Shown: piece by piece, positions 2,011 through 58,487 of the stretch
How the letters are laid out: each line of letters opens with the position of its first letter
Position numbering within the stretch: the stretch's first letter is position 1
Assembly: GCF_000240165.1 (NCBI RefSeq)
Contig: NC_017586.1
Span: 2,914,001 to 2,978,000, forward strand
Reading direction: 5' to 3'
Source of the DNA: Streptantibioticus cattleyicolor NRRL 8057 = DSM 46488
Lineage (GTDB): Bacteria > Actinomycetota > Actinomycetes > Streptomycetales > Streptomycetaceae
Length of the DNA: 64,000 bases
Made by a program: the position numbers and the translations under genes
Notes under the pieces: model-generated
Seen by the model: only the letters and a program-made list of their open reading frames with translations
What the model was told of the DNA's origin: nothing
The model's database searches: none

Positions 2011-2885
2011 CCCCCAACCCGTCGCTCGTCCTCTCATCGGGATGCACCGTGAACACCACCCCATCTCGCACCGGCCGCCCGCAGCCGGTGCGGTGCCGGC
2101 GCGGCGGCAGCAGCTCCTGCTGACCGGAGCGCTCCGAGTCGGTGACATGCAGAACACCCTCGCGCGCCCTCCGCTGATCGGCTCGCTCTGGGGCTACGGA
2201 GGGCTGGACCTCGGAGTGCTGACCGCGCTCGGCGGCACGCTGGCCTGGCACGCAGAGGTCAATCCGGACGCCTCCCGCATCCTGGCCCGGCACTGGCCCG
2301 GGGTGCCGAACCTCGGCGACATCACGTCCGTGGACTGGTCCACCGTCCCCCGGGTGTGCGTCCTGACGGCGGGCTTCCCCTGTCAAAGACGTCTCGGTCG
2401 CCGGCCGACGGGCCGGACTCAACTCCCAGACCCGTTCCGGGCTGTGGCTGCACGTCGCCCGTGCGGTCGAGGCCCTCCGACCCTGTTTGGTGGTGATCGA
2501 GAATGTGCGCGGCCTCCTCACCTCGCCCGCCGGTTCCCCTGGCGACATGGAATCCTGCCCGTGGTGTCTGGGAGACACCCCAGGTCAGCCTCCTCTGCGG
2601 GCACTCGGTGCCGTACTCGGATCCCTGGCCGACCTCCGGTACGACGCAAGGTGGCTCGTGCTTCGGGCCTCCGATATCGGAGCACCGCATCGCCGCGAGC
2701 GGACCTTCCTCGCCGCCTGGCCTGCCGAGCACCCTGCTCAAGACGCCGACCAGCAACATCGCGAAGAACGGCGGCTCGCAACATCCCGCCAAGAGGAAGA
2801 GCGGGGGCCACGGCCCGAACCTGGCCGACGAGGTCGAGTGGCTCCTCCTGCCGACTCCCAAGGCGTCGGTGTGCAACAACCCTGA
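2003..2885 (+). pseudogene. C5 DNA methyltransferase, N-terminal fragment, frameshifted
   Basis: The start of a cytosine-5 DNA methyltransferase. Motif I is LIGSLWGYGGLDLGV, motif IV is TAGFPCQ, motif VI is VVIENVRG, and RASDIGAPHRRER follows as motif VIII. It is broken. After PCQ an extra A near 2385-2387 shifts the frame, since removing one base restores QDVSVAGRRAG. A second +1 shift lies near 2725-2740, before LLKTPTSN. Homology-like sequence stops around LLPTPKAS (~2870), where a recombinase element begins. The missing C-terminal half, including motif X, lies at 5796-6283. The start at 2003 overlaps the upstream gene by 8 bp; 2042 and 2147 are alternatives. It is almost certainly inactive. 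Confidence 0.8.
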
Positions 2886-3052
2886 TGTTCGCCTGGAGGT
2901 GGCCGTTCTCCCTGTGCTGTTGCGGGTTCTGGCCAGGGAGACCCTCACTCGTTGGTGTGGCTCTGAGGCAGATGAGGCCCCTTCGGGATTCCTGAACAGA
3001 TTGCATCTCCACGCGGGACTATTCGCCCGTCTTGAAGTGGGGGAGGTGCAGG

Positions 3053-4120
3053 GTGGCCCTGGCTGTTGTCCGCGACCTGCGGCAGGCCCGCGGCGTGCCG
3101 AGTCCGGAGGAGCTGGAGGACTTCGAGACCGACGTCCTGGCCGGGTTCGTTCTGGCCCGTGCGTCGGCCGGTCTGACCGATGGGACGATCCAGTGCGATG
3201 TCGGGCACCTGGAGAAGGTGCGGGACTGGTTCGGCAGGCCGCTATGGGAGATGGAACCTCCGGACGCCGATGTGTACTTCGGCAAGGTCCTCCGCGACGC
3301 GACCCCCTCCCTGCGGGCGGGCCGGGCCGGCGCCATCAGCGTGTTCTTCGACTTCCTGGAGCTGCGGCACCGGGCCGAGCTGCACCAGCTGACCGGACGG
3401 CTAGTCGAGTGCCCGCTCGACGAGATGAACCGTCCCCGCGCGACCGTCACGCCGCAGCTGCGGATCCCGCCGAACCACGACGAGATCGAGGTGCTCTTTG
3501 CCGGGTGGCGCGACGACCTCGCCAGCTGCCGCAAGTTCGCTCCGGCTGCCCGGAATTACGCTGTCGCCCGCCTGTCCGCCGACGTGGGCCTGCGGATCAA
3601 CGAGGCCCGGATGCTCGATCTGGACGATGTCCGCTGGGACCTGGGCCGGTTCGGAAAGCTGAACGTGCGCTTCGGCAAGGGCTCCCGCCGTTCCGGTCCC
3701 CGCCAGCGGATGGTGCCGCTGATCAACGGCGCGGATCGCAACCTGCGTTGGTACGTCGAAGAGGTCTGGGGCCACTTCGGTGCTGACCACACTCTCCCCG
3801 GAGCGGCGCTGTTCCCCTCCGAGCGGCGCTCGGTCTCCGGCCGGGCCAGCACCGAGGTGTTCCGCACCGCGCTGGCCGAGGCCACCGGCCGCCACCTCCC
3901 GGCCTGGGCCGGGAAGCTCACCCCGCATGTCCTGCGGCACTTCTGCGCCTCCCAGCTCTACCTGTCCGGGATGGACCTGATCGCGGTCCAAGAACTGCTC
4001 GGACACACCTGGATCGCCACGACGATGCGCTATATCCACGTGCACCGCACCCACATCGAAGACGCCTGGACGGCCGCCCACCAGCGCGCCGAGACCCGGT
4101 GGAAGGGACTGACCCGATGA
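3053..4120 (+). CDS. Tyrosine recombinase (first of trio)
   Basis: A 355-residue site-specific recombinase of the phage-integrase family. A SAM-like N-terminal domain covers residues ~15-115. The catalytic domain follows, with R181 (GLRINEAR), K209 (FGKGS), H292 and R295 (TPHVLRH), H318 (LLGHTW) and nucleophile Y327 (MRYIH), so the active set is complete. The GTG at 3053 has a good ribosome site (GGGGGAGG) just upstream; a TTG at 3032 is possible. It is translationally coupled to the next gene. It presumably cuts and joins the ends of the surrounding 2.9-kb element. Confidence 0.85.
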   Translation: MALAVVRDLRQARGVPSPEELEDFETDVLAGFVLARASAGLTDGTIQCDVGHLEKVRDWFGRPLWEMEPPDADVYFGKVLRDATPSLRAGRAGAISVFFDFLELRHRAELHQLTGRLVECPLDEMNRPRATVTPQLRIPPNHDEIEVLFAGWRDDLASCRKFAPAARNYAVARLSADVGLRINEARMLDLDDVRWDLGRFGKLNVRFGKGSRRSGPRQRMVPLINGADRNLRWYVEEVWGHFGADHTLPGAALFPSERRSVSGRASTEVFRTALAEATGRHLPAWAGKLTPHVLRHFCASQLYLSGMDLIAVQELLGHTWIATTMRYIHVHRTHIEDAWTAAHQRAETRWKGLTR

Positions 4121-4449: not shown

Positions 4450-5795
4450 ACTGCCCCGTCTGCACCGAGCCGGTCCCGCCTCACACCATCCCGGGACGGC
4501 AGCGCGTCTACTGCTCGAACAAATGCCGGAGCCGGGCCTTCAGACGCCGTCACCCTGTGCCTCCCCGGCCCCGCCCGGCCAAGTTGAAGTACCCCAAGCC
4601 CACGGGGGAAGGCTCGCTGGGCACCGCCCGGAAGTACGCCATCAGGCTCGGCGAGGAACGAGGCTGGACGGTCTACATGCACCGCCAGGTCCACAAGGCC
4701 CTGGGCCGCGTCCTGACCGGACTGCCAGACGGGCAGCGCGTCAGCCACACCACGCTACGCGAGACGCTGACGGGCACGAACCTGCCGATGCGCCGCACCG
4801 CCGAGGTCCTGGCCGCGCTGGACCTGCTGATCGAGGACCGGACGCCGGCCGCCCGAGAATGGATCGAGCGCCGTGTCGGCGAACTGCCCGACGGCTTCCA
4901 GCGGGACGTGCGGAACTGGCTGCTGTGGCTGCTCGACGGGGACGCCCGCACCCGGCCGCGGGCGCTGGGAACGCTGCACTCGTACTTCGGCGCCGTCCGC
5001 CCGGTCCTGGAGCGATGGGCCGAAACCCACTCCCAGCTGCGGGAGATCACCCACGGCGAAGTCACCCACGCGATCACCGGCCTGCGCGGGAGCAAGTACA
5101 CGATTCTCGTCACCGCCCTGCGGTCCCTCTTCCGCCACGCCAAGAGGCACGGACGCGTCTTCACCAACCCCATGCGGGGCATCCGCGTCGGACGCCGCCC
5201 GCCAGGCCCCGTCATGCCCATGTCCGACAACGAGATCGCCCACGCTCGGACGACCGCCGCAACACCAGAAGCCCGCCTCGCCATCGCTCTGGCCGCCGTT
5301 CACGCCGCCCGCGGCGAGACGATCCGGGCCCTGCAGCTGGAGGATGTGGACTTCCCCAGGAACCGCATCACTCTCGACGGGACCGTCCAGCCCATGGGCG
5401 CGCTCACCCGCGCCACCTTGCGAACGTGGCTCGCCGAGCGCCAGGCACGCTGGCCCCACACTCTCAACCGTCATGTCCTGGTCTCGCGGCAGACCGCGAA
5501 CGACACCGGTCCCATCAGCCCGTACTTCCTCAAACGACAGCTCACCGTGCACGGCGTCAGTCTCGATCGCGTCCGCGCGGATCGGGTACTCGGCGAAGCC
5601 CTCGCCACCGGAGCCGACCCGCTGCACCTGACGGCGATCTTCGACCTCTCCGAGACCACAGCCGTGAAATACGCAGCCCTCGCCCGGCAGCTCCTCCACG
5701 ATCTCCCCGGCCACGGGCAGAACCCAAGGACCGAACACGCCCCGACCCCCGCCAACAGCCCCGAGTTCCCGCCGAAGGAGCTTCGGAAATCATGA
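4446..5795 (+). CDS. Divergent tyrosine-recombinase-like protein with N-terminal zinc knuckle
   Basis: A 449-residue protein. The N-terminus has a Cys cluster (NCPVCTEP, then YCSNKCRSRAFRRR) like a small zinc ribbon. The C-terminal two thirds follow the integrase pattern: ARGETIRALQLEDVDF supplies the first Arg, and ATGADPLHLTAIFDLSETTAVKY has the spacing of the usual LGH...Y segment. The usual HxxR and second His are not evident; the aligned positions read DRVLGEA and IFD, although a Tyr is kept. It may be a structural partner of the first recombinase or act with an altered active site. The ATG at 4446 overlaps the previous stop. Confidence 0.65.
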   Translation: MNCPVCTEPVPPHTIPGRQRVYCSNKCRSRAFRRRHPVPPRPRPAKLKYPKPTGEGSLGTARKYAIRLGEERGWTVYMHRQVHKALGRVLTGLPDGQRVSHTTLRETLTGTNLPMRRTAEVLAALDLLIEDRTPAAREWIERRVGELPDGFQRDVRNWLLWLLDGDARTRPRALGTLHSYFGAVRPVLERWAETHSQLREITHGEVTHAITGLRGSKYTILVTALRSLFRHAKRHGRVFTNPMRGIRVGRRPPGPVMPMSDNEIAHARTTAATPEARLAIALAAVHAARGETIRALQLEDVDFPRNRITLDGTVQPMGALTRATLRTWLAERQARWPHTLNRHVLVSRQTANDTGPISPYFLKRQLTVHGVSLDRVRADRVLGEALATGADPLHLTAIFDLSETTAVKYAALARQLLHDLPGHGQNPRTEHAPTPANSPEFPPKELRKS

Positions 5796-8213: not shown

Positions 8214-8878
8214 CCACCAACCGCGCCCCTCTGGCCAGGACCGAACTGGCCGGGCTCCTCTCCGATGCGGCGCAGAGCGTCTCCGAGATCCTCACAGCCG
8301 AGTACCCGACGGCCGCCAGCCGCTCCTATCTGCACCCCGTGCTGGGCGTGCTCTCGGCCGGGCCCCGGGTGGTCCGCGAGCTGAACGACCGCTTCGAAGG
8401 GTTCCTGGCCGCCGAGCCGGTCCCCGCGACGCCGGCTGGTCTGTTCACCCTGGCCTCCTACGCCTCCGCACTGGGCTGGCTGACCGAATCCCTCGCCGAA
8501 CTGACCACCTCAGTCGACCGGATCTGCACGCGCGTCGGGATGCCCACGGCGCCGCCGGACCCGGCCTTCACCACTCAGGCCGGCGGGGAGCAGGAAACCG
8601 AGTTCGACTTCGCCTTCAGCGCTCTGGAGATGGGGGCGATTCGTACCGCGGCCGAGGCCGCCGGTCTCACGCCGGGCGACTACATCGGGGTGCTCTCCGA
8701 GTCCCTGCTCGCCGCCTCCCGAATCACCGACGCCTGCATGGAGATCTCCAGCGGCCTCCTCGAAGACGCCGCCTACGTCCTCGGCGAGGCCACCGACCAG
8801 GTCTGGATCGGTGACGGCCCCGACAGCCTGCCCACGCTGGTCCGTTCGCTGCTTGCTCGGATGGAGGCCGCCGAATGA
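8210..8878 (+). CDS. Hypothetical helical protein
   Basis: A 222-residue, mostly helical, acidic protein coupled to both neighbours (ATGA overlaps). There is no transmembrane segment, signal peptide or recognisable catalytic motif. The N-terminal half (LLSDAAQSVSEILTAEYP, VVRELNDRFEGFL) and the C-terminal half (AIRTAAEAAGLTPGDYI) both look like helical bundles. I do not recognise it. Conserved placement in the operon suggests an element-specific function. Confidence 0.55.
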   Translation: MTTNRAPLARTELAGLLSDAAQSVSEILTAEYPTAASRSYLHPVLGVLSAGPRVVRELNDRFEGFLAAEPVPATPAGLFTLASYASALGWLTESLAELTTSVDRICTRVGMPTAPPDPAFTTQAGGEQETEFDFAFSALEMGAIRTAAEAAGLTPGDYIGVLSESLLAASRITDACMEISSGLLEDAAYVLGEATDQVWIGDGPDSLPTLVRSLLARMEAAE

Positions 8879-9324
8879 ACGACGAAAACGCCAGCGACCT
8901 GGGCAACGACCACGGCTTCGGCCGGGTAGACGATTGGGCCATCTCGGGTGATCGCCAGCTCAGGGCTCTCGAAGCCGTCGAGGCCGGCGAACTGCGATTC
9001 CACCGAAGCGCGGTCTATGGCGACATCTACCTCTCGGACGGTCGAGGCCAGCGGCCGAACCCGGAGGTCTGGCCCGAAACCGTCCAGCGGCTGGTCGCCG
9101 ACGGCCTGTTGGAACAGGACACCAGCGAGGGGCTGTACCGGCCCGGTCAGCTCCTCTCCCTCACGCCGCAGGGGGAGGCGGCCCTTCGAGACGCTCGTAC
9201 GGCCACGCCTCGCGTGTCCGCCGCCCTCAGCCGCAGCAACTCGACGGCGCTCTCCGGCACCGCCGTCGGTCCATCCGTCGCGCCCGCGACAAGCGCGACA
9301 CCCAAGCCTTCGCGTTCCCGCTGA
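8875..9324 (+). CDS. Putative winged-helix small protein
   Basis: A 149-residue protein overlapping the previous gene by 4 bp. Residues ~60-105 (ETVQRLVADGLLEQD, then LLSLTPQGEAALR) have the helix-wing pattern of winged-helix DNA-binding proteins. The remaining ~45 residues are Ser/Thr/Ala-rich. It is the last member of the coupled run that began at 6377. A regulatory role is inferred from the fold only. Confidence 0.55.
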   Translation: MNDENASDLGNDHGFGRVDDWAISGDRQLRALEAVEAGELRFHRSAVYGDIYLSDGRGQRPNPEVWPETVQRLVADGLLEQDTSEGLYRPGQLLSLTPQGEAALRDARTATPRVSAALSRSNSTALSGTAVGPSVAPATSATPKPSRSR

Positions 9325-9346
9325 TCCCCCAGAAAGGGCGTCACCC

Positions 9347-9889
9347 ATGTCCACCGCGATGTACACCCGCCGCCTGATCGAGCACCGGTACGGCCGCACG
9401 CTGGAGGAACTGCAGCGCGGCAACGCCAACGGTCACTCCGACGACCCTGTCCTGCCCATCTTGCTGAGGCGGCTCGACGGGCTTGCCCATACCGACGCCG
9501 AAGCCCGTTCTGCCCGCCGAAACCTCGACAGGGCCTGGCAGCGACGCCGTTCTGGCGAACACGTCCTCGACGACCTCGTGCTGCTGTACGCGACCGAAGT
9601 CATCGACCTCGAACGGCAGGAGCAGAGCGAGGCGGAAGCGGTCTGGGACCTGCTGGATGTCCGTCTCTTGCTGGACCGTCCTCCTGCGCAGCGACCCTCG
9701 CACCATCGAGCAGCCCGTACTCCTGGTGACGAGGAGCTGCTGGCCACCGCCCGAGAAGTCGCCGCCGGCCTGCATCGCCTCAACCGCGAGGCATTGGGTC
9801 GGGGACTGCGCGACCGCGGCATCCACGTCAGCAACCGGCGGCTCGGCGTGGTGCTCCAGAGGCTCCGGACTGAGAACCCTTCCCACTGA
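9347..9889 (+). CDS. Hypothetical protein
   Basis: A 180-residue protein starting 22 bp after the previous stop with an AGAAAGG ribosome site. It is rich in charged helices (EVIDLERQEQSEAEAVWDLL) and ends with a basic segment (RGLRDRGIHVSNRRLGVVLQ) that could be a helix-turn-helix. I recognise no family. It belongs to the same-direction block of plasmid/ICE genes, but its gap suggests independent translation. Confidence 0.5.
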   Translation: MSTAMYTRRLIEHRYGRTLEELQRGNANGHSDDPVLPILLRRLDGLAHTDAEARSARRNLDRAWQRRRSGEHVLDDLVLLYATEVIDLERQEQSEAEAVWDLLDVRLLLDRPPAQRPSHHRAARTPGDEELLATAREVAAGLHRLNREALGRGLRDRGIHVSNRRLGVVLQRLRTENPSH

Positions 9890-9945
9890 CGAGCAGCTCA
9901 CCACATATCTGGCAACCCCCATCCCCCTTAACGGAGTTCGTTTCC

Positions 9946-10791
9946 ATGTCCACCCCCATGCACCCCTCCGCCGCATCGATCGGTGCGGTCGATGCTCAGC
10001 GCGTCGAGGACGCGCTCTCTCTGATAGCACCGAAGTGGACCACTTGGTCGGCTCAGACGCTGGCGCAGCAGGGCCGCCCCATGCGTGTGCGTGACGTCGC
10101 TGCCAGGTTCCCCTTCGTCAGCGAGCAGCTCGTCGGCAAGCGGCTTGCCCAGATGCACGCCGACGGTCTGGTCACCCGAGTCGACAACCGCCACGGGGCT
10201 CCGTACCAGCTCAGTGCCCTCGGCGAATCGCTGTCCCGGGTGCACCGTGCCCTTGCGCACTGGTCCCAGACCAACCTGTCGCTCGGCGGCCCGGTGGCCG
10301 GTGCAGAGCGCGTCGAAGACGCCGTGCGACGTCTGCACCTGCGGCATTCGACCGCCGTCATCCAGGTCCTCGACTCGGGCGGCCCCATGCGGTTCGTCCA
10401 CATCGCCGAGGAGGCTGGCCTGGACAACGGCTTCACGCGGGTGCGACTCAACCGGCTTCAGGTCGATGGCCTGGTCACCCGTACCGGTCCGCGCCACGGC
10501 GACCCCTACGTCCTGACCGACGCCGGACGGGCCCTGGGCCCCGTATACGCGGCCGTCGAGCAGTGGAGCAACCCCGGTGCCCCGCGGAAGCACTCGACAC
10601 CACCGGCCCCCGTCACGGCGGCCACCCGGACCCACACCGGCGTCCCTCTGGGGGCGGACGGCATCCGAACCGCAGCGGCCCTACGCCGGAGCACCGCCGC
10701 GCCGAGCGCCCTGTTCAGCCACGCACCGCAGCCGCAACCGCGGGTGCCGGCGGCTGTCACCGCCCAGTCGGCCCCCTCTCGGGTCCGGTGA
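9946..10791 (+). CDS. Tandem HxlR-type winged-helix protein
   Basis: A 281-residue protein with two related winged-helix units at ~15-105 and ~120-205. Each has the HxlR-like order: RVEDALSLIAPKWTTW / RVEDAVRRLHLRHSTAVI, then helix-turn-helix (VGKRLAQMHADGLVTR / TRVRLNRLQVDGLVTR), then a wing ending in a Y-x-L-T/S segment. HxlR proteins usually carry one unit and dimerise, so this looks like an internal duplication giving a single-chain pseudo-dimer. The tail of ~75 residues is Pro/Ala/Thr-rich. It is probably a regulator of the element; targets are unknown. Confidence 0.7.
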   Translation: MSTPMHPSAASIGAVDAQRVEDALSLIAPKWTTWSAQTLAQQGRPMRVRDVAARFPFVSEQLVGKRLAQMHADGLVTRVDNRHGAPYQLSALGESLSRVHRALAHWSQTNLSLGGPVAGAERVEDAVRRLHLRHSTAVIQVLDSGGPMRFVHIAEEAGLDNGFTRVRLNRLQVDGLVTRTGPRHGDPYVLTDAGRALGPVYAAVEQWSNPGAPRKHSTPPAPVTAATRTHTGVPLGADGIRTAAALRRSTAAPSALFSHAPQPQPRVPAAVTAQSAPSRVR

Positions 10792-12796: not shown

Positions 12797-12801
12797 CCAC
12801 G
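12797..12801. repeat. Target-site duplication, left copy (CCACG)
   Basis: CCACG immediately precedes the left end TGTGACT. The same five bases follow the right end at 19338-19342. A 5-bp duplication is the hallmark of Tn7/Tn5053-type transposition. Confidence 0.85.
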
Positions 12802-12895
12802 TGTGACTTCGACGGATAGTTTGCGACTCCGCCAGCCTGGGACCTGGGGTTCCGACTTGTAGTTTGCGAGCCGTTCCGAGCGTTACTTTGCGAGG
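12802..12895. repeat. Left end of Tn7-like element with three transposase-site repeats
   Basis: The terminal 30 bp (12802-12831) match the right end inverted. AGTTTGCGA-like units lie at 12818-12826, 12861-12869 and 12885-12893; the third overlaps the last codons and stop of tniQ. Multiple unequal repeats per end are typical of TnsB binding sites. Confidence 0.8.
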
Positions 12896-14856
12896 TGACG
12901 TCCGGCGATGGTGACCGTCAGTGACGAATCGGACTGCTGGCAGGTTGCAAGGAGGTCGGCGGCGTGGTCGGCCAGCAGCGGCAGGAGGACCGAGTAGGGC
13001 GAGCGGGGCTTGTCTCGTCTGAGCCGGTTGGCGAGGTGGATGGCCGGATCGGCTTTGGTGGTGCTGCGGCCCGGGGCTGCGATGGGCGGGCGGAAGCAGG
13101 GGGCGAGGCAGGGCTCGCTGCCTGTGACCTGTGACCAGATGAGTGCGGAGAGGGCCTCGTGCAGTTGGTCTGCCGGGGCTGACGGCTTTCGCTTGTTGGC
13201 CGCGACGAAGCGCTCGAGGAACTCGGCGAACGCGTCGTCTCCGAGGTGCCAGGACTCGTGTTGCCGGCGGCGACGCCGGTAGTCGACGTGGTCGGTCGCG
13301 GGGATGGCGGCGAGGTGGTCGGCGAGCCGGTAGAGGCTTTCGCGAAGTTCGTCCGTGCGTTCGTCAGAGCCGGTGGCGACCGGCTGCTGGGCCGGGGTGG
13401 TCAGGAAGTTGGTGCCGGGCGGGAAGCCGAGATATTCGGCTGCCTGTTGAGCGTTCATGTCTTCGGCGGCTTGGACGAGCAGGATCGCGGCCGTGCGCCG
13501 GAACCTGCGCGAGTGCGGCGGGAACGGGCAGTTGGCATCCGTCCAGAAGATCCGGAACCACTGGTCGGGTAGTTCCTGGGGGATGTTCTCGGGAGCGAAA
13601 CCGTGGCGGCGTTCGATCTTGAGAGCGAGGAGCGAGGGGATGACCTGGCGTCGCGACCAGGCTGTGGAGGGGATGCGCGGCCGGGGACGCCTGCGCAGGG
13701 ATTGCTGGACGACTGCGCGCCGGACGAGTGTGGCGTCCTTGTCCATGAGCTTCCAGGTGGCTCCCCAGCGCTTGTTGTCGCGTTCGGGGCATCGGGGGGC
13801 GAGCTGTGCGAGTTCCTGCCCGAGTTCCCCATCGGGCAGGCTCAGCAACCGGTCGGCGACGGACAGGACCGCGGCAGCGCCGATGGACGAGCGTGGCAGG
13901 TAGGTCCAGAAGACGCCGTCGTCGCGCGGTGCGCTCTGGGCGAGGAAGCCGGGCAGTCGCGTCTCCTGGGCGGCCAGGTGCTCGTCGACGGCGGCTTTCT
14001 GACCGGTGGGGACCAGGTCCGCCATCGCGGGCCAGGTCGCGAGGACGAGTGCGGTGATCGTCTGGAGGTCGGCGAAGGCCGCGAAGGCGTCCTCCGGTGC
14101 GGTGTCCTCGTCGAAGAGGCGGTCGAGGCGGGACTGCAGATCCGCGAGGTGCTGCGGCAGGGGCCGCGGCGGCGTGTCGGCGGGCTGGTCGAGTCGGTGC
14201 CCGCAGATCACGCCGGGCCGTTCGCGCTCGGCGTCGCTGCGGCAGGCGGCCGGGTGGAGATCTTCCAGCCCGGGGTTGCCGATCAGGAGGAGCGAGCCGG
14301 GCCAGCCCCCGCCCAGCGTGAGGCCGGACGGCCGGCGGCAGCCGGGGCACTCGTGTTCCAGAAACACGTTGTGTTGGACGCAGGCAAAGCTGGTGGCCAG
14401 TCGCCAGCGACGAAGCCAGGGACCGCCGTGCCGCCGCTGGACGGCCGAGCCGTCCCCGGCCAGGCAATGGGGGCAGTAGCGGCTGAACGAGGACAGGATC
14501 CAAGGCGGGGCGATCTGGCGGGGCTTGAGCAATACGCCGGCAGGACGGGGCAAGCCCAGCGCGTGGGCCACCGGCGGGAACCGGCTGGCCAGTGGATGCA
14601 GAGTCAGCTGGTCGACGGTCCCCGTGGTGGCCCCGATGATCCGGGCGAGCCGCTCACGCTTGACCGGGTCGATGAAGAACAGGCGGCCGCTCGGGGCGAG
14701 GGTCGCGGTGGTCTGGGCGCCGAGGAGGCCGAGCCGCCAGAGGATGTGTCCCGGGGGCAGGCGGAGGCGGTGGCCGAGGCGGAGCGCGAAGCCGGGCAGC
14801 GACTCGTCCGGCAGCGGGACCAAGCACCTGGCCATGCGGTGGTCGGGGACGGCCAT
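12883..14856 (-). CDS. tniQ: TniQ/TnsD-like target-selection protein
   Basis: A 657-residue protein. Its N-terminus (LVPLPDESLPGFALRLGHRL) is the TniQ signature. It is followed by zinc-binding clusters (RYCPHCLAG; then SFACVQHNVFLEHECPGC) at ~125-165, matching the TniQ zinc-finger region. The remaining ~450 residues are a long, poorly conserved C-terminal part, as in TnsD-like proteins that read a target DNA. In Tn7-like systems TniQ links target DNA to the TnsC filament. The gene follows tnsC with a 1-bp gap and its stop lies within the left transposon end. The length suggests sequence-directed targeting, but the site here is not a tRNA or glmS. Confidence 0.85.
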   Translation of the reverse strand: MAVPDHRMARCLVPLPDESLPGFALRLGHRLRLPPGHILWRLGLLGAQTTATLAPSGRLFFIDPVKRERLARIIGATTGTVDQLTLHPLASRFPPVAHALGLPRPAGVLLKPRQIAPPWILSSFSRYCPHCLAGDGSAVQRRHGGPWLRRWRLATSFACVQHNVFLEHECPGCRRPSGLTLGGGWPGSLLLIGNPGLEDLHPAACRSDAERERPGVICGHRLDQPADTPPRPLPQHLADLQSRLDRLFDEDTAPEDAFAAFADLQTITALVLATWPAMADLVPTGQKAAVDEHLAAQETRLPGFLAQSAPRDDGVFWTYLPRSSIGAAAVLSVADRLLSLPDGELGQELAQLAPRCPERDNKRWGATWKLMDKDATLVRRAVVQQSLRRRPRPRIPSTAWSRRQVIPSLLALKIERRHGFAPENIPQELPDQWFRIFWTDANCPFPPHSRRFRRTAAILLVQAAEDMNAQQAAEYLGFPPGTNFLTTPAQQPVATGSDERTDELRESLYRLADHLAAIPATDHVDYRRRRRQHESWHLGDDAFAEFLERFVAANKRKPSAPADQLHEALSALIWSQVTGSEPCLAPCFRPPIAAPGRSTTKADPAIHLANRLRRDKPRSPYSVLLPLLADHAADLLATCQQSDSSLTVTIAGRHLAK

Positions 14857-14857
14857 G

Positions 14858-16141
14858 TCAGCCGGCCGAGCCGGCCGCCGAGGCGGGGCCGTGGTCGTCG
14901 AAGACGGTGTTGCGGCCGCGGCGCCGGCGGGCGGGTGTCCGCCCAGCGGTGGCCGGCGGTGTGGGGTCGACCTCTTCGGGGGCCAGCTGCGGGTCGTCGC
15001 GGCGGATCACGATCTCGTCCAGCGTGCCTTCGTCCAGCATCTCGTGGCCGCTGTCCATGGCTTCCTGGCAGCCGTCCTCGATGAGACGGCTCAGGAGTCC
15101 GACGATGCCGTTCGTGCGGCGCATCAGATACTCCGGCATCGTGCCCGTGGTCAGCATGCCCGGCTTGGCGTTCAGCAGCCGCAGGTGGGCCTCGATGCCG
15201 TGCAGGTGCTGCAGGAACGTGTTGATCTGTTCGCTGGTGGTGTAGCGGAAGCGGTCCATTTCGACCAGCTCGAAGCGGTGCTCGGTCTGGGTGGGCTCCA
15301 GGCCGTTGACGCGGGTGGACTCCAGCGGGGGCAGCACCCACTGCTGCTGACGCGCGTTCCACTTCGCCTCGCGCAGCAGCCCGGTGCCGGGGATGTTCAC
15401 CCCGGTGAGGATCAAGGTGACGCCCAGGCTCATGAGCGCGCGGATCAGGTCGAGGACGTCCTGGTCGTCAGCGCGGTGCATTCGCAGCCGGCTGATGTCG
15501 TCCAGCACCAGCGCGCGGACCCCGTGGTCCCGCAACGTGTCGGCGACCAGCTGGACCAGGCGGGGCAGTGTCGCCGAGGCGCGCGTGTCGGCGCGGAAGA
15601 ACCGCAGGATGGCCTGGCAGGTGCTTTTCGGGGTGGCGGTGACGGGGGTTGAGACATAGACGACCGGCGCGTGCAGGTCGGCGGTGCCGGGGACGGCGGC
15701 GGGGTTGAGGAAGTCGTGCAGCTGCAGCCAGGAGTCCTCGAATGCCGCGCAGACCGCGCTGACCGTGGCGGTCTTGCCGTAGTGGCCGAAGCCGCTGACC
15801 ATCACCCCGGCCAGTGTCGGGTCGTCCATCTTGAGCGCGTTGCCGTGCAGTCGGCGCTTGATCAGCCGGGTCACCTTCGCTGCCATCGGGGTCTGCTGGA
15901 GCGGTAGGTTCACGTTCGTCAGCCGGCGGAACATGTCGTAGTCGAAGCGGCGGTCGACGGGCAGGACCGCCCACTGCTTCGGGGTCAGGTGCGGCGGGGG
16001 CAGCAACTGGCCGCGGGTGAGCCGGTAGTGCTGCCAGCCCTCGAAGGTGTCGCGGTGCAGCGTGGGCCGCAGCACGAGTTCGGCGAGCCGTTCCCGCGAC
16101 GGCCACTGGTCCTTCGGATCGCCTGATCCGGATGCCGTCAC
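14858..16141 (-). CDS. tnsC: TnsC/TniB-like AAA+ transposition regulator
   Basis: A 427-residue protein. Walker A is SGFGHYGKTATVS at ~116-128 and Walker B is LVLDDISRL at ~195. An Arg-rich C-terminus follows the AAA+ core. TnsC/TniB ATPases polymerise on target DNA and pass the target choice from TniQ to the transposase. The GTG at 16141 overlaps the tnsB stop (GTGA) and starts VTASGSGDPKDQW; the longer open frame to 16327 is probably not used. It lies between tnsB and tniQ as in Tn5053 and Tn7. Confidence 0.85.
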   Translation of the reverse strand: MTASGSGDPKDQWPSRERLAELVLRPTLHRDTFEGWQHYRLTRGQLLPPPHLTPKQWAVLPVDRRFDYDMFRRLTNVNLPLQQTPMAAKVTRLIKRRLHGNALKMDDPTLAGVMVSGFGHYGKTATVSAVCAAFEDSWLQLHDFLNPAAVPGTADLHAPVVYVSTPVTATPKSTCQAILRFFRADTRASATLPRLVQLVADTLRDHGVRALVLDDISRLRMHRADDQDVLDLIRALMSLGVTLILTGVNIPGTGLLREAKWNARQQQWVLPPLESTRVNGLEPTQTEHRFELVEMDRFRYTTSEQINTFLQHLHGIEAHLRLLNAKPGMLTTGTMPEYLMRRTNGIVGLLSRLIEDGCQEAMDSGHEMLDEGTLDEIVIRRDDPQLAPEEVDPTPPATAGRTPARRRRGRNTVFDDHGPASAAGSAG

Positions 16142-18381
16142 GTGTTCTCCAGGGGTTCGTCGTCGGCCTGGCCGACCGGGGCATGGGCGGGAAGGAGGAA
16201 TAGGTTGCCGCGCAAGGACTCCTCCAGCAGCGGCGGAGCCGTCAGCGCGGCAGGCTCCGCGCTCTCTCGCCGCCGGCGGCGGTCGGCGTCGACCGCCGCA
16301 CGGACGGTGTGAGCGTGCCGCTCCCACGGCTGCGGCATCGCCGCAGGCGCCGGGACGGCATCAGGCTGCGGCCGGTCTGCGGCCGCCGCCTGGGCCCGCG
16401 CATGCTCGCGCGAGCGGGCGGCCCGGTCCTTCTTCCCGGCCTGGCTCGGCCAGGCCGCGACCGGGGTGACCGAGCCCAGCAGCTTCAGCAGGACCGGCAG
16501 CAGCTCGGCGTCCGAGCGCGGGGCCAGCCCGGCCCGCCGGACCTCCGCGAGCAGGTCAGCCGCAGTCTTGTCCGAGAACGCCGGGACCTCGCCCTCGGGC
16601 GGCAGCCCATTCCACCGCAGCGTGTGCCAGACCTGGTGATCGTCGGGGTCCTGGAAGAACACGGTGCGTCGGTCGCGCCGGTCGCTGGAGACGGCCCACT
16701 TGCCCGCGTGCCGGCCGCCGCGCTGCGACGGCAGCAGATAGCGCGGCTCGTCGAGAACCGGAGCGTGATACCAAAGGCCAAGGATCTTCACCCCGCGACG
16801 CGGGTGGATCTTGACGTGGTGCCGGCGAAGCAGCCGGTAGTAGAGCTCCGGCTCGGGGATCCGCAACGAGAAACCACCCTGCTGCATCGCCGCGGCGAAC
16901 AGCGAGTTCGGGCTGTGCCGCTCGCCCGGCCCCCAGGCCGGGGAGTACTCGCCCAACTCCCTGACCTGCCAGACCTGGACGATCCAGGTGGCGATCAGGT
17001 GTTCCATCTGGGAGAACGTCAGCACCGCGTCCGCCTCCGGGTCGTTTCCGCGGTCCGCGACGTCCGTTCCGGTGAACCCGAGAAGGTGCTCGAACAGCAG
17101 CGTCTTGAATGCGGAGAACGCGCGCTCGACGGCGAACTTGTCGGTCGGACGCAGAGCCCGGGCGGGCAGAACGTTGCAGCCCAACTCGCGCTCAGATGCC
17201 ACCAGTTCGTGGCTCTTGTAGGGGCCTCCGTGGTCGGTGGTGACCGTCTCGGGGGTGAAGAACGGCAGGGCGGCGACCTCGTGACCGGCGAACTCGGCCA
17301 CGATCTCGGCGGGGACGCCGGGATAGGGCCAGGCCATCTCCTCGCCCCAGCCCAGGCGCATCGGCAGCGGCAGCATCACGTCCCGCAGGAGCATGGCGAC
17401 GTCGACCGACTGATCCGCCTGCGGGGTGAGCCGGAACGCGGGGGCCGAGTGTGTGAACAGGTCCAGGCCGAGCGTCAGCGTCGCGCTCACCGGCTCCCCG
17501 AACACCGACTCGCGCAGCTTGACCGGCAGCGGAGTGGAGTCCAGCGCCAGAACCTGACCCGGCCGGTGGACCACCACCCTGCCCCGGACGCCCGCCTCCT
17601 CGGCCGCCGCGGCCGACCGCAGGTAACGCTGCCGGCCGCCCTGCGGCCCGAACCACTCCCGCCAGACCGCGGCCAGCGTGTCCCAGCCGGGGACCTTTTC
17701 GATCGGGAAGTCGGGAAACCGCTCCGCGACGTACTGGTGCAGCAGACGGTGCTTCGCGCTCATGCTGATCCGCGAACGGCCCTGGCACTCCTTGTGGACT
17801 GCGAAGACCGCCTCGCGGATCTCCGGGGTGATGCTGCGGCGCGGACCGCGCCGCCGGGTCCACCGGCCGTCCGCGCAGGCCGCCAGCAGGTCCTGCGGCG
17901 CGACCGTGGACAGTCCCTGGAGCGTGCGTAGTCCCAGCCCGGCAAGTCCCAGCATCGCCGCCTCGCCGGCGGGCAGGGCCTTCAACTCGGCGACCTTCGC
18001 CCGCCGTCGCTCGGTCAGCGTCGTCGTTGCGGGATCGTAGGCGGGCCGCGGCTCGCCGGGCCGGGCCAAGGCCGCGGTCCCCTCTCGGAACCCGGTCACC
18101 GCCTCCCGGACGTGCTCGGCCCGCAGCCGGGCCCGCCGCAGCTGGTCCTCCGTCAGATCCGCCGGGCCCGCGGGCTGGACGCCCGCGGCCGGTGCGGGCG
18201 CGGGCCGTCCCGGCCGGGCATCGCGATGGTTGACCAGCCAGGCGAACGAGCGGACCTCCGTCCGGCCCTCCTCGCAGGCCAGCGTCAGCCGCCCGAACTG
18301 CGGCTCGATCCCGGTGACCGTCCACTCGACGCCGTTCAGCACCACCCGCGCGCCCGCCGCCAGGTCGAACGACCGCATCAC
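16138..18381 (-). CDS. tnsB: TnsB/TniA-like DDE transposase
   Basis: A 747-residue protein of the retroviral-integrase-like (rve) transposase superfamily with a Mu-type C-terminal domain. The predicted catalytic triad is D281 (VLALDSTPLP), D383 (TVTTDHGGPY) and E419 (FAVERAFSAF). Helix-turn-helix-like segments (~120-250) precede the core and would bind the end repeats. It performs 3'-end cleavage and strand transfer. It overlaps tnsA upstream and tnsC downstream, so the three are translated together. Confidence 0.88.
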   Translation of the reverse strand: MMRSFDLAAGARVVLNGVEWTVTGIEPQFGRLTLACEEGRTEVRSFAWLVNHRDARPGRPAPAPAAGVQPAGPADLTEDQLRRARLRAEHVREAVTGFREGTAALARPGEPRPAYDPATTTLTERRRAKVAELKALPAGEAAMLGLAGLGLRTLQGLSTVAPQDLLAACADGRWTRRRGPRRSITPEIREAVFAVHKECQGRSRISMSAKHRLLHQYVAERFPDFPIEKVPGWDTLAAVWREWFGPQGGRQRYLRSAAAAEEAGVRGRVVVHRPGQVLALDSTPLPVKLRESVFGEPVSATLTLGLDLFTHSAPAFRLTPQADQSVDVAMLLRDVMLPLPMRLGWGEEMAWPYPGVPAEIVAEFAGHEVAALPFFTPETVTTDHGGPYKSHELVASERELGCNVLPARALRPTDKFAVERAFSAFKTLLFEHLLGFTGTDVADRGNDPEADAVLTFSQMEHLIATWIVQVWQVRELGEYSPAWGPGERHSPNSLFAAAMQQGGFSLRIPEPELYYRLLRRHHVKIHPRRGVKILGLWYHAPVLDEPRYLLPSQRGGRHAGKWAVSSDRRDRRTVFFQDPDDHQVWHTLRWNGLPPEGEVPAFSDKTAADLLAEVRRAGLAPRSDAELLPVLLKLLGSVTPVAAWPSQAGKKDRAARSREHARAQAAAADRPQPDAVPAPAAMPQPWERHAHTVRAAVDADRRRRRESAEPAALTAPPLLEESLRGNLFLLPAHAPVGQADDEPLENT

Positions 18382-19223
18382 AGGCCGCCGACGCGAGTGG
18401 GCCAGACCAGCGAAGTGTCGCCGAGCGGCCGGCCCAGATCGACACCCAGGCGCCGGTGCCAGAGCAGATGCGTCGCGTGCGCGCGGGCGACAACCGGCAG
18501 CCTGGTCGCCGCCACCAGCTCACCGAACCGCATCGGCGCCGATGCCAGCAACTCTCCCTCCAGACCGAGCCGGTCCGGCAACGGACGACGCTGCGACGAC
18601 AGATGGTCCAGGCCGGTCAGCACGTGCTCCCGCCAGCCGGCCACCACCGAATAGCCCCAGCCGCAGGCCGCCGCTGCCTCCCGGGCCGCGGCGAACTTCA
18701 GCCGGTCCTCCGGCTTGATCAGCCGCTCCGGGCGGACGTCGAAGAGCCAGATCCTCCCGTCCGGCATCACCGCCAGGAAGTCCGGAACATGGCGCGACCG
18801 TCCTCCCTGGTGTTCGAAGTCCAGCTCGAACGGCTGGGGCAGGACCTCCAGGACGCCGACGAAGTCCAGCGCGAGCAGCAGGCGCTGTTCCTCCAGCGAC
18901 TCGAAGCCGTGGTGTCGCCCCGTGGAGACCATGAACTGCAGGCCCGGCCGGTGTCCCTGGCGAGAGCGCCACGTGAACTTCCGCACCGGCCGCGACGCCG
19001 ACACCGGAGCCGAGGCCATGTTCCCCAACGGCCACGAGATCTCCGTCCCGCCGACCAGCCACGTACCGACCCAGCGACGCAGCCAGCCATCGGCCAGCCG
19101 AAGACGATCCCGCTCGGCGGCATCACCTGCGTACGCCACCAGCAGATCGTCCACGCCGCACACATCGGACCCGATCAAGGTCCCAGCCGAAGAACCCACC
19201 CGTACACAGCACCACGGCCACAC
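18378..19223 (-). CDS. tnsA: TnsA-like endonuclease subunit
   Basis: The TnsA-like core is GFESLEEQRLLLALDF (catalytic Glu), then RHVPDFLAVMPDGRIWLFDVRPERLI. This holds the Asp (PDF) and a DVR where Tn7 TnsA has QVK-type residues. TnsA nicks the 5' ends so that the element leaves by cut-and-paste; elements lacking it (Tn5053) form cointegrates. The frame is open from 19223, but the conserved part begins near MASAPVSASRPVRKF, so an internal start at 19019 (213 residues) is quite possible. The Lys-to-Arg change at the last catalytic position is unusual relative to Tn7. It overlaps tnsB by 4 bp. Confidence 0.75.
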   Translation of the reverse strand: MWPWCCVRVGSSAGTLIGSDVCGVDDLLVAYAGDAAERDRLRLADGWLRRWVGTWLVGGTEISWPLGNMASAPVSASRPVRKFTWRSRQGHRPGLQFMVSTGRHHGFESLEEQRLLLALDFVGVLEVLPQPFELDFEHQGGRSRHVPDFLAVMPDGRIWLFDVRPERLIKPEDRLKFAAAREAAAACGWGYSVVAGWREHVLTGLDHLSSQRRPLPDRLGLEGELLASAPMRFGELVAATRLPVVARAHATHLLWHRRLGVDLGRPLGDTSLVWPTRVGGL

Positions 19224-19290
19224 ACTTCAGCGCTGCCAGAGACCGCACATGACCACTACGCAACGTGACCCGACCGGGCCCCCGACCGGC

Positions 19291-19337
19291 GCTCGCAAAC
19301 TACAGCTCGGATTCGCAATCTATCGATCGGAGTCACA
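19291..19337. repeat. Right end of Tn7-like element
   Basis: The outer 30 bp (19308-19337) are the inverted copy of the left terminus and end AGTCACA. Inverted AGTTTGCGA-type units lie at 19293-19301 (exact) and 19313-19321 (AGATTGCGA). Two sites here against three on the left give the element a polarity, as in Tn7. Confidence 0.8.
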
Positions 19338-19342
19338 CCACG
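19338..19342. repeat. Target-site duplication, right copy (CCACG)
   Basis: Identical to 12797-12801; it abuts the AGTCACA end directly. Confidence 0.85.
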
Positions 19343-33624: not shown

Positions 33625-34761
33625 TTACACCTCCATCTGCTCGTCGGTCCCTTCCGGCCGCGAGTGGAGGTGTCCGACGCTGTTCCGGATCACCTCGTCG
33701 CTGATCCGCAGGGCCTTCGCCAGCCGTGCGGCCCGGGTTTCGGGAAAGCTGCCGCTTTGCAGCGCACACGCGCGGACGAGTTGGCGGGTTGCTTGGACTT
33801 GGTGGGAGGTGACGAGGGCCGTGAACCGGGGGTCAGCCAGGCACTCGCGGGCAGCGTAGCCGTCGGTCGCCGTGATGGTCCGGCGGTGCAGTTCTTCGGC
33901 CATGTGGTGCGCTGCGTCATTCTGATCTTGGTCGAGAAGATCCAAGATCGTGAGACCGAGTCGTATGTCGAAGACGGTGGTGCCCTGCTCGGGCTGGCGC
34001 TCGACGTAGCCGTCCACGAGTGCATCAAGGAGGTGGCCGACCGGGTGGAGGAGGGCCCGGTTGCACATCACGTTGAGGCAGCCAGTGACGGCGTTCTCCC
34101 AGGGTTCGCCGGGTGTTGTCTCGTCGACGAGCGCGACGGCGTCGGCGGGGTTGCGGCTGAGCGTGGCGAGGACGGCGACCTGGCGGCCGTCGAGCATCCG
34201 CTGCCCGACGCCTCGATGTTCGAGGATGTGGGCCAGGGCTTCCGCCCAGCGGCCGGCCATGGTGAGGGTGCGGGTGCCGTCGGCCAGGATGACGCGCCAC
34301 AGCCAAGCGCGCACCTCGTGGCGGTCGGTGTCGTCGGCGGTGAGGTCGGCTGGCAGGTGGATGCCCTCGAACTGAGCGGTGGTGCCGGTGTTGACGGCCT
34401 CGTAGAGGCTGAGCAGGCGGCCTCGGCCGTCGTCCGCATGGCCCGCGCGGATCTGGAGCCGGGCGAGATTCACTACGGGTTCGAGGGCGCGGATCGCGGT
34501 CATGCCGGGCAGTGGAGCAGCGTGCAGGTAGGCGGCAGCGTGCTGGTGGCACATCTTCCGAGCCAGGTCGGGCAGGCCGAGATCGGAGGCGAGGAGGGCG
34601 GCCTGGTTGTAGACCGCGGAGGCCAGGCCCTGGTCCGCCTTGACGGCTGCGGCGTCGGCGAGTTCGACCAAGGCGTGCACGCGCCGGGGAAGGGGGAGGC
34701 ACGCAGGCCGGAATCGGGAGATCAGCGGGAAGCGCTGGGCTATGGGTCCGTTCGGGTCCAT
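33625..34761 (-). CDS. Hypothetical TPR-like protein next to the lanthipeptide genes
   Basis: A 378-residue, helical, soluble protein. Repeating helix pairs (AVYNQAALLASDLGLPDLAR, PVVNLARLQIRAGHADDGR, GRWAEALAHILEHR) suggest TPR-like solenoid repeats. No catalytic motif and no HTH are visible. It lies downstream of the methyltransferase gene but beyond a strong hairpin, so it may have its own promoter. A regulatory or scaffold role is possible. Confidence 0.5.
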   Translation of the reverse strand: MDPNGPIAQRFPLISRFRPACLPLPRRVHALVELADAAAVKADQGLASAVYNQAALLASDLGLPDLARKMCHQHAAAYLHAAPLPGMTAIRALEPVVNLARLQIRAGHADDGRGRLLSLYEAVNTGTTAQFEGIHLPADLTADDTDRHEVRAWLWRVILADGTRTLTMAGRWAEALAHILEHRGVGQRMLDGRQVAVLATLSRNPADAVALVDETTPGEPWENAVTGCLNVMCNRALLHPVGHLLDALVDGYVERQPEQGTTVFDIRLGLTILDLLDQDQNDAAHHMAEELHRRTITATDGYAARECLADPRFTALVTSHQVQATRQLVRACALQSGSFPETRAARLAKALRISDEVIRNSVGHLHSRPEGTDEQMEV

Positions 34762-34803
34762 GGGTCCCCCTGGGATGAAGACGAGAAGTAGGTTGGGCCG
34801 CCC

Positions 34804-34835
34804 GTGGTGTCCGCCGGTCGGTCGGCGGACACCAC
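34804..34835 (-). terminator. Hairpin terminator of the lanthipeptide operon
   Basis: GTGGTGTCCGCCG (34804-34816) and CGGCGGACACCAC (34823-34835) pair perfectly over a 6-nt loop, 12 bp beyond the methyltransferase stop. Confidence 0.7.
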
Positions 34836-34847
34836 GCGGTCGACGGG

Positions 34848-36932
34848 CTACTGCCAGGCGACGAGGATGCGGTTCAACGGGGTGTCGAGGACGAAAGTGC
34901 CGGGCCGCTGCTCGACCGCGGGTCCGTCGAGCGGCAGGGCCTCGAAGGTGGCCTCCCGGCCGCGATACTCGCGGTCCCAGGTGCGGATGGCGTCGGCGAC
35001 CTTCGCGGCCAGCTGGTCGCTACCGGGGCCGTGGCCGATGACGCCGAACTCCCAGAGCTTGCCGCCCTCGGGGGTCTTCTGCTCGGAAGGCCGGCGGGCG
35101 AGGTAGGTGACGGTGCTCTCCTCGACGGCGGCCGTGGCCGAGGGGTATGGGTCCTCGGTGAGCACCGTGCCCTTGGCGGACTGGGGGAAGAGCATCCGGA
35201 CCAGGCCGGAGGGCACCGCGCAGGAGACGAACAGCTCCATCCACTCCGGCGACTCTCCTGCGCGGACCGTCATCTCGGTCCACTGCTCGACGCGCGGCTG
35301 GTCGAGGACACCCGCGAGGGCGTCTGCATCGATGAGTTGTCCGGAAGGGGCCTGGAGCCGCACGGTGCCGTCCGCGCTGAGCGGGACAACGCGGCGGTCA
35401 TCGTCGGCGATGCCCCGCCTCAGCGGCATGAAGGTGTTCATCTCCGAGCCGAGCGACAGCCACCGGCCGTCGTGCTTCTCGTAGATGATGGAGCGCGAGA
35501 CGCTGCCCTTGAGCCGCTGCGGGGTGACGAGCCGCCCGCCGGGGGAGAGCTGGTCGAGCCAGGCGTGGGGGATGCCGTGCGCGCCGACGGTGGCGACGAT
35601 CCGGTCGTACGGGGCGCCTTCGGCGTGGCCGAGGGCGCCGTCGCGGGTCAGGGCCTCGACGTTGGTGACGCCGGCGGCGGCGAGGTGGGCGCGGGCGCCC
35701 TCGACCAGGTCGTCATCGACGTCGATGGTGGTGACGTGTCCGGTGGGGCCGACGAGGTGGCCGAGCAGGGCGGCGTTGTAGCCAGTGCCGGCGCCGAGTT
35801 CGAGGATGCGTTCGCCGGGCTGGGCGTCGAGCTGGTCCAGCATGAGGGCGACGATGCCTGGTTGGGAGGCGCAGGAGATGGACGTGCCCTCGCTGTCGTA
35901 CTTGATGTTGACCGGCGCGTTGGCGTAGGCATCGGTCAGCGAGGCGTCGGGGACGAACAGGTGCCTGGGCACGGCGCGCAGAGCGGCTTCGACCGCGGGA
36001 GTGCGGGCGTGGCCGTTGGCCTTGATCTGGTCCACCAGGGCGTTGCGGAGCTGTTCGGCGTCGGCCTCGGCGGAGGTGAGTGTGTCGGTTTTCACCGCGC
36101 TGACGCTATCGGCCGCGGAGCCTGGCGCTGGTGCTGACGCGGTGTTTTCACTCGATCCCATGACTGCCTCTCGTGCGATGTGGGACAGGGCGTGCTGGTC
36201 TTCGGATGGCAGACCGGCACGGTTGGCGTGGAAGATCACGTGATGCGCGATGACGGCCCGCAGCCCGCGGGTCAGATCGCCCTGGGCGGCGAGGTAGGCC
36301 AGCGTGGTTCCGGCGCGCTCGAAGGCGGCGATCCACTCGGCGTGGCCGTCGAACGGCCCGCCCTCGCGGCACAGGCTGCGGGCCTCCGTGGTCATCAGGG
36401 TCCGCATCGCCGAGATCAGCGTGGCGGAGCGCTCGGGTGCAGGGGCGTCGGTGCCGGGACGCAGCGCGGCGACCTTCGCCCACACGTCGCCCTGCTCGAA
36501 CCAGTCGAGGTTCGCGGCGCGCATCAGGCTGCTCATCAGCAGGACGGCGGTCTCGCGGCGCCCCAGATGCCCGGCGCAAACTGGGTAGTTGAGGAGATGA
36601 CGGCTGTCCTCGTGGAAGAGGGCGTGCGCGGCCGTCATGGCGTTCGCGCCGCCGAACGCCTCGGTCTCCGCCTCGTAGATCGCGAGCGTGCAGGACAGCG
36701 CGATGCCGTCGGCCACCAGTTCGTCCAGCAGGGCCACCATGGTCGGCGACGGCCGGTCGGCCACGTACCGCAGGGGCCAGGGCTGCTTGTTCATGAACCA
36801 CCAGCCGCTGAGCTGCCCGTCGGCCTCGGCAGCGAGCAGCGCTGGGGCGAGGCGTTCGGTGATGGCGCGACGCGCGGTGTCCCGGTCGGGGAAGGTGATG
36901 TTGTGCTGCTGCCAGCGCTCGGGGGGCATCAA
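34848..36932 (-). CDS. FxLD-system methyltransferase (isoaspartyl-type) with SpaB_C-like N-terminus
   Basis: A 694-residue two-part protein. Residues ~5-260 (WQQHNITFPDRDTARRAI, GWWFMNKQPWPLRYV) resemble the SpaB_C/thiopeptide-type bacteriocin domain. Residues ~295-690 are a protein-L-isoaspartate O-methyltransferase-like enzyme: PRHLFVPD, then motif I ILELGAGTGYNAALL at ~375, and VTTIDVDDDLVEGAR. In lanthipeptide clusters such enzymes methylate an Asp of the modified precursor, leading to succinimide/isoAsp. It is the last gene of the lan operon, 20 bp after lanC. Confidence 0.85.
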   Translation of the reverse strand: MMPPERWQQHNITFPDRDTARRAITERLAPALLAAEADGQLSGWWFMNKQPWPLRYVADRPSPTMVALLDELVADGIALSCTLAIYEAETEAFGGANAMTAAHALFHEDSRHLLNYPVCAGHLGRRETAVLLMSSLMRAANLDWFEQGDVWAKVAALRPGTDAPAPERSATLISAMRTLMTTEARSLCREGGPFDGHAEWIAAFERAGTTLAYLAAQGDLTRGLRAVIAHHVIFHANRAGLPSEDQHALSHIAREAVMGSSENTASAPAPGSAADSVSAVKTDTLTSAEADAEQLRNALVDQIKANGHARTPAVEAALRAVPRHLFVPDASLTDAYANAPVNIKYDSEGTSISCASQPGIVALMLDQLDAQPGERILELGAGTGYNAALLGHLVGPTGHVTTIDVDDDLVEGARAHLAAAGVTNVEALTRDGALGHAEGAPYDRIVATVGAHGIPHAWLDQLSPGGRLVTPQRLKGSVSRSIIYEKHDGRWLSLGSEMNTFMPLRRGIADDDRRVVPLSADGTVRLQAPSGQLIDADALAGVLDQPRVEQWTEMTVRAGESPEWMELFVSCAVPSGLVRMLFPQSAKGTVLTEDPYPSATAAVEESTVTYLARRPSEQKTPEGGKLWEFGVIGHGPGSDQLAAKVADAIRTWDREYRGREATFEALPLDGPAVEQRPGTFVLDTPLNRILVAWQ

Positions 36933-36952
36933 GAGGTCCTTCGTTCGGAGGT

Positions 36953-41316: not shown

Positions 41317-41350
41317 GAGTACCTCCTTGCACCGGAGTGAGGGGGCGGCC

Positions 41351-41381
41351 GGTGCCGCCGCGCGGGAAGCCCGGCGGCACC
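41351..41381 (-). terminator. Attenuator-like hairpin between lanA and lanB
   Basis: GGTGCCGCC (41351-41359) pairs with GGCGGCACC (41373-41381). Such hairpins after a precursor gene allow partial read-through, giving much more precursor than enzyme. Confidence 0.55.
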
Positions 41382-41409
41382 TACCCCCGTCAGGGCCAGA
41401 CGGCCAGGG

Positions 41410-41589: not shown

Positions 41590-41734
41590 GACAACTCCAG
41601 GTGATTCGTTCGATGTTGCGGACAGGTGGTACTGCCAGCTCACTGACCGCCGGAGCGTAGCGACGGAGCTATGCCGCGGGCTCAGGTTCTGGCCATCCCG
41701 GCGCGATGGCCGAGCCGGGAAGCTTTGGGTGGAG

Positions 41735-56992: not shown

Positions 56993-57014
56993 GGTGTGCT
57001 TGCTCCTACGAGGT

Positions 57015-58411: not shown

Positions 58412-58451
58412 CGGGGTCTCTCTTGTCTCATCGTGAAATCAGGCACAGGTG

Positions 58452-58487
58452 ACATCAGCACCCGGTGGTGTCACCCACCACTGATGT
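58452..58487. promoter_or_regulatory. Putative ArsR operator between arsC and arsR1
   Basis: Inverted repeat ACATCAG (58452-58458) / CTGATGT (58481-58487) in the 90-bp divergent gap. ArsR repressors bind such repeats and release on arsenite binding, which would control both arms of the island. Confidence 0.5.

Follow-up and report, generated by a model that had tools for sequence, protein, structure and literature searches.

The DNA analyzed here (the window) is a stretch of 64,000 nucleotides from the actinomycete Streptantibioticus cattleyicolor NRRL 8057 (contig NC_017586.1, positions 2,914,001 to 2,978,000; positions below are those of the window), and it contains at 12802-19337 a compact Tn7-like transposon of 6,536 bp. 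The span 12797-19342, given in a preliminary description made from the sequence alone, includes both target-site duplications. Four open frames, all on the minus strand, make up the element. The first of them, tniQ (12883-14856), encodes a protein of 657 amino acids with a TniQ domain (PF06527, E 2.3e-23), conserved Cys and His residues, and a long, variable C-terminal part. A single base separates it from tnsC (14858-16141), whose product, a TniB/AAA+ ATPase that has Walker motifs and matches PF05621 and PF13401 (AAA_22), has 427 amino acids when counted from the GTG at 16141; this GTG overlaps the tnsB stop, and an earlier GTG lies in the same open frame at 16327. The gene tnsB (16138-18381), which overlaps tnsC, codes for a DDE transposase of 747 amino acids (D281, D383, E419), recognized by profile match and alignment, and tnsA (18378-19223) codes for a PD-(D/E)xK-type nuclease of at most 281 amino acids with DVR instead of DVK in its motif. 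TnsA reaches 25.1 bits with Pfam PF08722, below the cut-off of 26.5, and is matched by the family NF033179 (TnsA_like_Actin) at E 1.6e-39. Outside the four genes the element holds 81 + 114 bp, i.e., 195 bp, which leaves no room for cargo or CRISPR-Cas. The intact TnsA-TnsB-TnsC-TniQ set without cargo or CRISPR-Cas that had been proposed beforehand is thus what the element contains. Its label "minimal" is right for this copy but not unique to it, as the relatives L016 and L022 are also cargo-free by annotation (the ends of L022 are weaker).

TnsB has no Pfam match at 0.001. When a 12-row TnsB profile is compared with solved structures, the catalytic region finds its best match in TnsB of a type V-K CRISPR-associated transposon (CAST; 3.2e-16), and TnsB of Tn6677 follows at 3.1e-6. 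D281, D383, and E419 are invariant in the 12-row alignment, from which L021 was left out, a relative whose TnsB lacks the second Asp stretch and whose element, judged from this stretch, is probably dead. An rve domain is detected in 11 of 12 TnsB members at E values up to 0.1. Matches of the TniQ profile to solved TniQ and TnsD are weak (E 0.011 and 0.034), and the AlphaFold2 model of TniQ, built on a 5-row alignment, has a mean predicted local distance difference test score of 40.5. With a TnsB-type DDE transposase, a TnsC ATPase, and a TniQ, the element carries the proteins that mark Tn7-like transposons.

The borders are formed by 30-bp terminal inverted repeats (left, 12802-12831, plus strand; right, 19308-19337, minus strand) that agree at 25 of 30 positions and are flanked by exact copies of the target-site duplication CCACG at 12797-12801 and 19338-19342. 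When the two 300-bp border stretches were shuffled block-wise (10 bases) and an exact 5-bp duplication was required, no pair went beyond 18 matches (n = 200). Counted from the left end, repeats with a core of type TAGTTTGCGA start at 15, 58, and 82 (12816-12826, 12859-12869, and 12883-12893, plus strand, the third overlapping the tniQ stop), and counted from the right end they start at 15 and 35 (19313-19323 and 19293-19303, minus strand). Identified by a repeat search, they are candidate TnsB sites. The ends, the three left and two right repeats, and the duplication at both borders are as first described, and the element shows both the terminal repeat arrays and the 5-bp target duplication of Tn7-like transposons, the latter also seen in its relatives.

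The joined flanks with one CCACG align uninterrupted to three plasmid records, Streptomyces angustmyceticus p1 and p2 and Streptomyces sp. BHT-5-2 p1, at 87-88% identity over about 600 joined flanking bases, and the borders fall where they had been predicted. Both S. angustmyceticus stretches aligned identically, and the empty sites therefore stand for two lineages, not three. On S. angustmyceticus p1 the empty site (L011, 10264-10268) is flanked by one gene running leftward (9889-10152) and another running rightward (10371-10550), with relaxase and MobC genes nearby, and matching MobA/VirD2, NikA/MobC, DUF317, and DUF2637 genes in the window region point to plasmid-type DNA. This agrees with the initial view that the transposon entered an intergenic region of another mobile element and not a glmS- or tRNA-type site; glmS is not adjacent to the site in the annotated empty-site record, and a tRNA search of the window found none. 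As to the recent movement that had been proposed, ends, frames, and duplication are indeed intact, but only loose bounds can be put on recency, as the closest copy found is 91-94% identical in TnsA/TnsB and the empty-site flanks are 12-13% diverged. It is improbable that the element is a dead remnant that is no longer mobile. The genome of S. cattleyicolor holds one full copy, its three other matches being short and partial, and some relatives have decayed, with core deletions in L007, a tnsA frameshift in L028, and damage to tnsB in L021; against such a fate, the four frames of the window element are open, the catalytic residues are present apart from the TnsA Arg, and both ends and the duplication are intact.

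The window element belongs to an actinobacterial Tn7-like family that resides on plasmids and chromosomes of Streptomycetaceae. A TnsB scan of the genome collection gave four loci, and the plasmid collection contains 149 records with a TnsB match at E values up to 1e-20, 10 of which cover at least 80% of the query. Family frequencies are based on samples of 21, 51, and 70 genomes: TnsB was found in 4 of 21 (E up to 1e-60) and in 6 of 51 (E up to 1e-100), the window's own genome included in both, and TniQ in 6 of 70 genomes of one genus (E up to 1e-50), where one of the six matches, by its coordinates, is apparently the Kitasatospora xanthocidica record L007. A single scan of viral contigs with the window TnsB gave no match, and a phage search returned three prophage records at 27-28% identity.

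One rule for ends (inverted ends with a perfect 5-bp duplication, at most 4 kb before tnsA and at most 9 kb past tniQ) was applied to 24 family loci and recovered 12 insertions, corresponding to 11 distinct elements including that of the window, and all their duplications are different. The ends match at 25 of 30 positions in the window, 23 in L007, 25 in L010, 23 in L016, 26 in L020, 27 in L021, 19 in L022, 27 in L027, 22 in L033, 24 in L046, 24 in L047, and 23 in L048. Among 550 mismatched end pairings, 1 reached 23, 4 reached 22, and 95 reached 19, and therefore L022, and less so L033, are not secure on end match alone. Position, together with repeats at about 15, 70, and 93, lends their ends further support; in an earlier scoring they attained 33 and 32, respectively, while 272 mismatched pairings over a narrower range did not exceed 32. 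The other 12 loci, several of which are broken or near contig ends, gave nothing above 19 under the rule; the ends of two of them, L028 and L032, are good, although no perfect duplication accompanies them. Several members have ends of two sorts, one with a pair of abutting repeats (15, 35) and one with repeats set apart (15, about 70, about 93), and the gene side that carries the abutting or the spaced ones differs between members. L010 has two similar right-type ends before tnsA (about 4260 and 5862), with a perfect duplication at the outer one only, and more repeats of the same type just beyond its left end. In L007 (13981-17979), deletions have removed parts of both tnsC and tniQ, and genes for an ABC transporter and a sensor kinase lie between tniQ and the left end.

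Genome G075, which is of the same genus as the K. xanthocidica match, possesses two copies of a family element that are 100% identical over 8,122 bp and hence encode one TniQ. Identity ends exactly at the inverted ends, the duplications are AAGGA and GAGTC, and the flanks are unrelated, so that one fixed attachment site is excluded for this TniQ. The TniQ of the window presumably lacks such a site as well. The window element and L007, with TnsBs 93-94% and TniQ C-terminal parts 88-89% identical, sit in unrelated DNA, and some insertions lie inside genes, L033 interrupting a comEC-like gene (PF03772, 6.9e-43) and L020 a gene for an Eco57I-type methylase. A placement of the L007 copy just past the stop of a gene was considered and dropped; the long frame concerned has no Pfam match. 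The shared TniQ at two unrelated sites, the unrelated flanks of close relatives, and the insertions inside genes all speak against a TniQ that acts as a true, TnsD-like site-specific selector, with the window site or a nearby sequence as its attachment site and the remaining insertions at secondary sites or directed by other TniQ types. The length of 657 amino acids, the strong divergence of TniQ, and the apparent tniQ replacement described below would suit selectors tuned to different sites, but on balance we consider a selector of this kind unlikely. Insertion where TniQ or TnsD directs it is typical of Tn7-like transposons, although not all of them share this trait.

A sequence common to the insertion sites, to which TniQ might bind, was not found either among the 11 sites or in pairs of them. 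By entropy, the 11 aligned sites showed no consensus beyond that of shuffles (best value 0.99 bits; null median 0.87, 5% value 0.68), no k-mer was shared above shuffles, and pairs with the same or a near TniQ stayed within the range of shuffles at 10, 15, or 20 bases. When the window site was compared with those of three relatives at different offsets, 9 to 85 of 100 shuffles equaled or exceeded the observed value. A hairpin preference was not detected at the 11 sites (p = 0.36; L010 was left out of the motif and hairpin tests), and individually low folding scores occur at L047 (z -2.7), at L027 (z -1.7), and at the window site. According to the preliminary description, targeting must be directed by TniQ alone. 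The element indeed contains no other candidate for a selector, but the statement is not supported as it stands, for a single TniQ of one relative occurs at two unrelated places, and the flanks of the window copy and L007 have no motif in common beyond what shuffles yield.

Within the family TniQ appears as the variable module. In all 190 pairs among 20 loci, conservation of its C-terminal part falls below that of TnsB, and in 188 of them also below that of its own N-terminal part. Two elements of Streptomyces plasmids, L014 and L015, have TnsBs that are 90% and TnsAs that are 84% identical, but their TniQs share only 45% (N-terminal part) and 27% (C-terminal part). The tnsA-tnsB-tnsC DNA of this pair is 86% identical, and the similarity ends at position 12529 of L014, 28 bp before the end of tnsC. 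From these alignments, it looks as if tniQ was replaced between the two types; the end search found no ends in either locus. Modular selectors have already been proposed for Tn7-like elements, as stated in passages of Faure et al. (2023; PMC10293859). At another locus, L009, a single tnsABC is accompanied by two nearby stretches that resemble TniQ (about 4611-5639 and 8852-9970).

In Tn7 TnsA the Lys of the PD-(D/E)xK motif is catalytic. At this position Arg (DVR or DIR) is present in 19 of 19 family TnsAs that are in frame there (the frameshifted L028 not counted), whereas Lys (DVK) is kept in 2 of 2 distant relatives, L035 from the same genome and L051 from a Rhodococcus plasmid. Such a distribution might mean that TnsA is impaired by the Arg and that the element copies itself via cointegrates, which host recombination or a resolvase acting in trans would then resolve. 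The window element has no resolvase, identical duplicate copies are found in one genome, and passages of Benler et al. (2021; PMC8649781) predict copying for branches in two clades. However, TnsA is retained in 14 relatives at 44-91% identity to that of the window, which argues for function; moreover, Arg may substitute for Lys, and duplicate copies arise by cut-and-paste as well. Transposition via cointegrates seems rather doubtful to us. L035 (G000:C2:3318000-3331000) is a second, distant Tn7-like set whose TnsA, TnsB, TnsC, and TniQ are 28-32% identical to those of the window, and the same end search gave no convincing ends for it. The same genome also contains a relic in L029 (G000:C2:205000-213000, about 2843-3432) that stems from the TnsA of a relative and is split between two frames.

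Starting from the ends, gene set, duplication, and empty sites at this locus and from the two identical copies of a relative, we favor, with a probability of about 0.8, an autonomous, cargo-free Tn7-like transposon whose TniQ accepts many sites and not one fixed site, and a family in which tniQ genes are exchanged between elements. By analogy to the biochemistry of Tn7, TnsB would bind the repeat arrays at both ends and join the ends to the target with a 5-bp stagger, TnsA would serve as the partner end nuclease, and the AAA+ protein TnsC would bridge to TniQ, which would mark the target. TniQs of the family may take many sites owing to a loose DNA specificity, or they may read a state of the DNA or another protein. 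Several points weigh against this interpretation. The motif tests covered 2 to 11 sites, and a short or degenerate motif could escape them; the window site is intergenic and its folding score is below average (z -2.0); and long TniQ C-terminal parts, with weak helix-turn-helix matches in a few of 14 members, are as expected of a site-specific TnsD. Furthermore, only one pair with the same TniQ was found, and this TniQ is 37% identical to that of the window, while in L007, the closest relative of the window element, the beginning of tniQ is missing. The Arg of TnsA may also mean that the nuclease works differently. The more far-reaching proposal, that the long TniQ is not a homing factor and uses many sites including genes, that tniQ is swapped among elements nearly identical elsewhere, and that the TnsA Arg is fixed, is put forward tentatively.

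Tn7 proper possesses TnsE, a glmS-directed TnsD, and a TnsA nuclease with Lys in its motif; in contrast, the window element has only four genes, its site is not beside glmS, and its TnsA homolog has Arg for Lys. Transposons of the Tn5053/Tn402 type lack TnsA and carry a resolvase gene, whereas the window element has tnsA and no fifth gene. Unlike type V-K CASTs, it has tnsA, a long TniQ, and no CRISPR-Cas, and the Cas effector and array that a CAST carries inside are absent. The gene order tnsA, transposase, AAA/TniB, and TniQ recurs in nine annotated loci of Streptomyces plasmids, in operons of the NF033179 type ("TnsA-like heteromeric transposase"). The gene tables of such operons list protein genes only, and borders and duplications were derived in the present analysis. 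In the passages of Benler et al. (2021; PMC8649781) concerned, Tn7-like clade 2 is dominated by Actinobacteria and has no experimentally characterized member, cargo is present in 96% of 6,549 elements, and the median lengths range from 14 to 29 kb. The window element probably belongs to clade 2, having in common with it, as described there, tnsB, tnsC, and tniQ/tnsD, end repeat arrays, and the host phylum, and it differs from the bulk of that set in being 6.5 kb long and cargo-free. Tn7706 of Rhodococcus erythropolis NI86/21, to judge from parts of its report (PMC12915292), is similar in having tnsA, tnsB, tniB, and tniQ, inverted ends, and several copies at different places, but it is 19.4 kb long with 19 genes; the likeness is taken from its description. 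Among the matches listed, TnsBs from Rhodococcus plasmids are 29-35% identical to that of the window. Passages of a 2025 review (PMC12231136) describe a different arrangement in Streptomycetaceae, tnsB-tnsC beside type I-E CRISPR loci without transposon ends. The family name TnsA_like_Actin appears once in the portion seen of one genome paper (PMC7188733). The literature search found no paper on TniQ in Kitasatospora, none linking TnsA and a catalytic arginine with Tn7 and cointegrates, and, among the matches listed, no title on these Streptomyces elements.

Elsewhere in the window, an arsenic-resistance operon (about 57000-64000) lies about 38 kb from the element, and similar operons adjoin tns genes on two Streptomyces plasmids (L025 and L037). 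An FxLD-type lanthipeptide cluster at about 33700-41700 is common to several Streptomyces plasmids.

The window element adds a new, compact member to a class of transposons that is already known. Of most interest at the level of the family are the apparently loose targeting despite a long TniQ, the exchange of tniQ, and the Arg signature of TnsA. The locus supplies precisely located ends, empty sites, and a compact set of four genes, probably for the clade that, according to the passages available from Benler et al. (2021; PMC8649781), has no experimental characterization; insertion tools are useful in hosts of this type. The identical pair at separate sites, together with the apparent tniQ swap, makes it testable what a long TniQ recognizes when it is not homing. 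If the more far-reaching proposal is true, these bacteria would harbor an RNA-free and loosely targeted Tn7-like machine made up of only four proteins.

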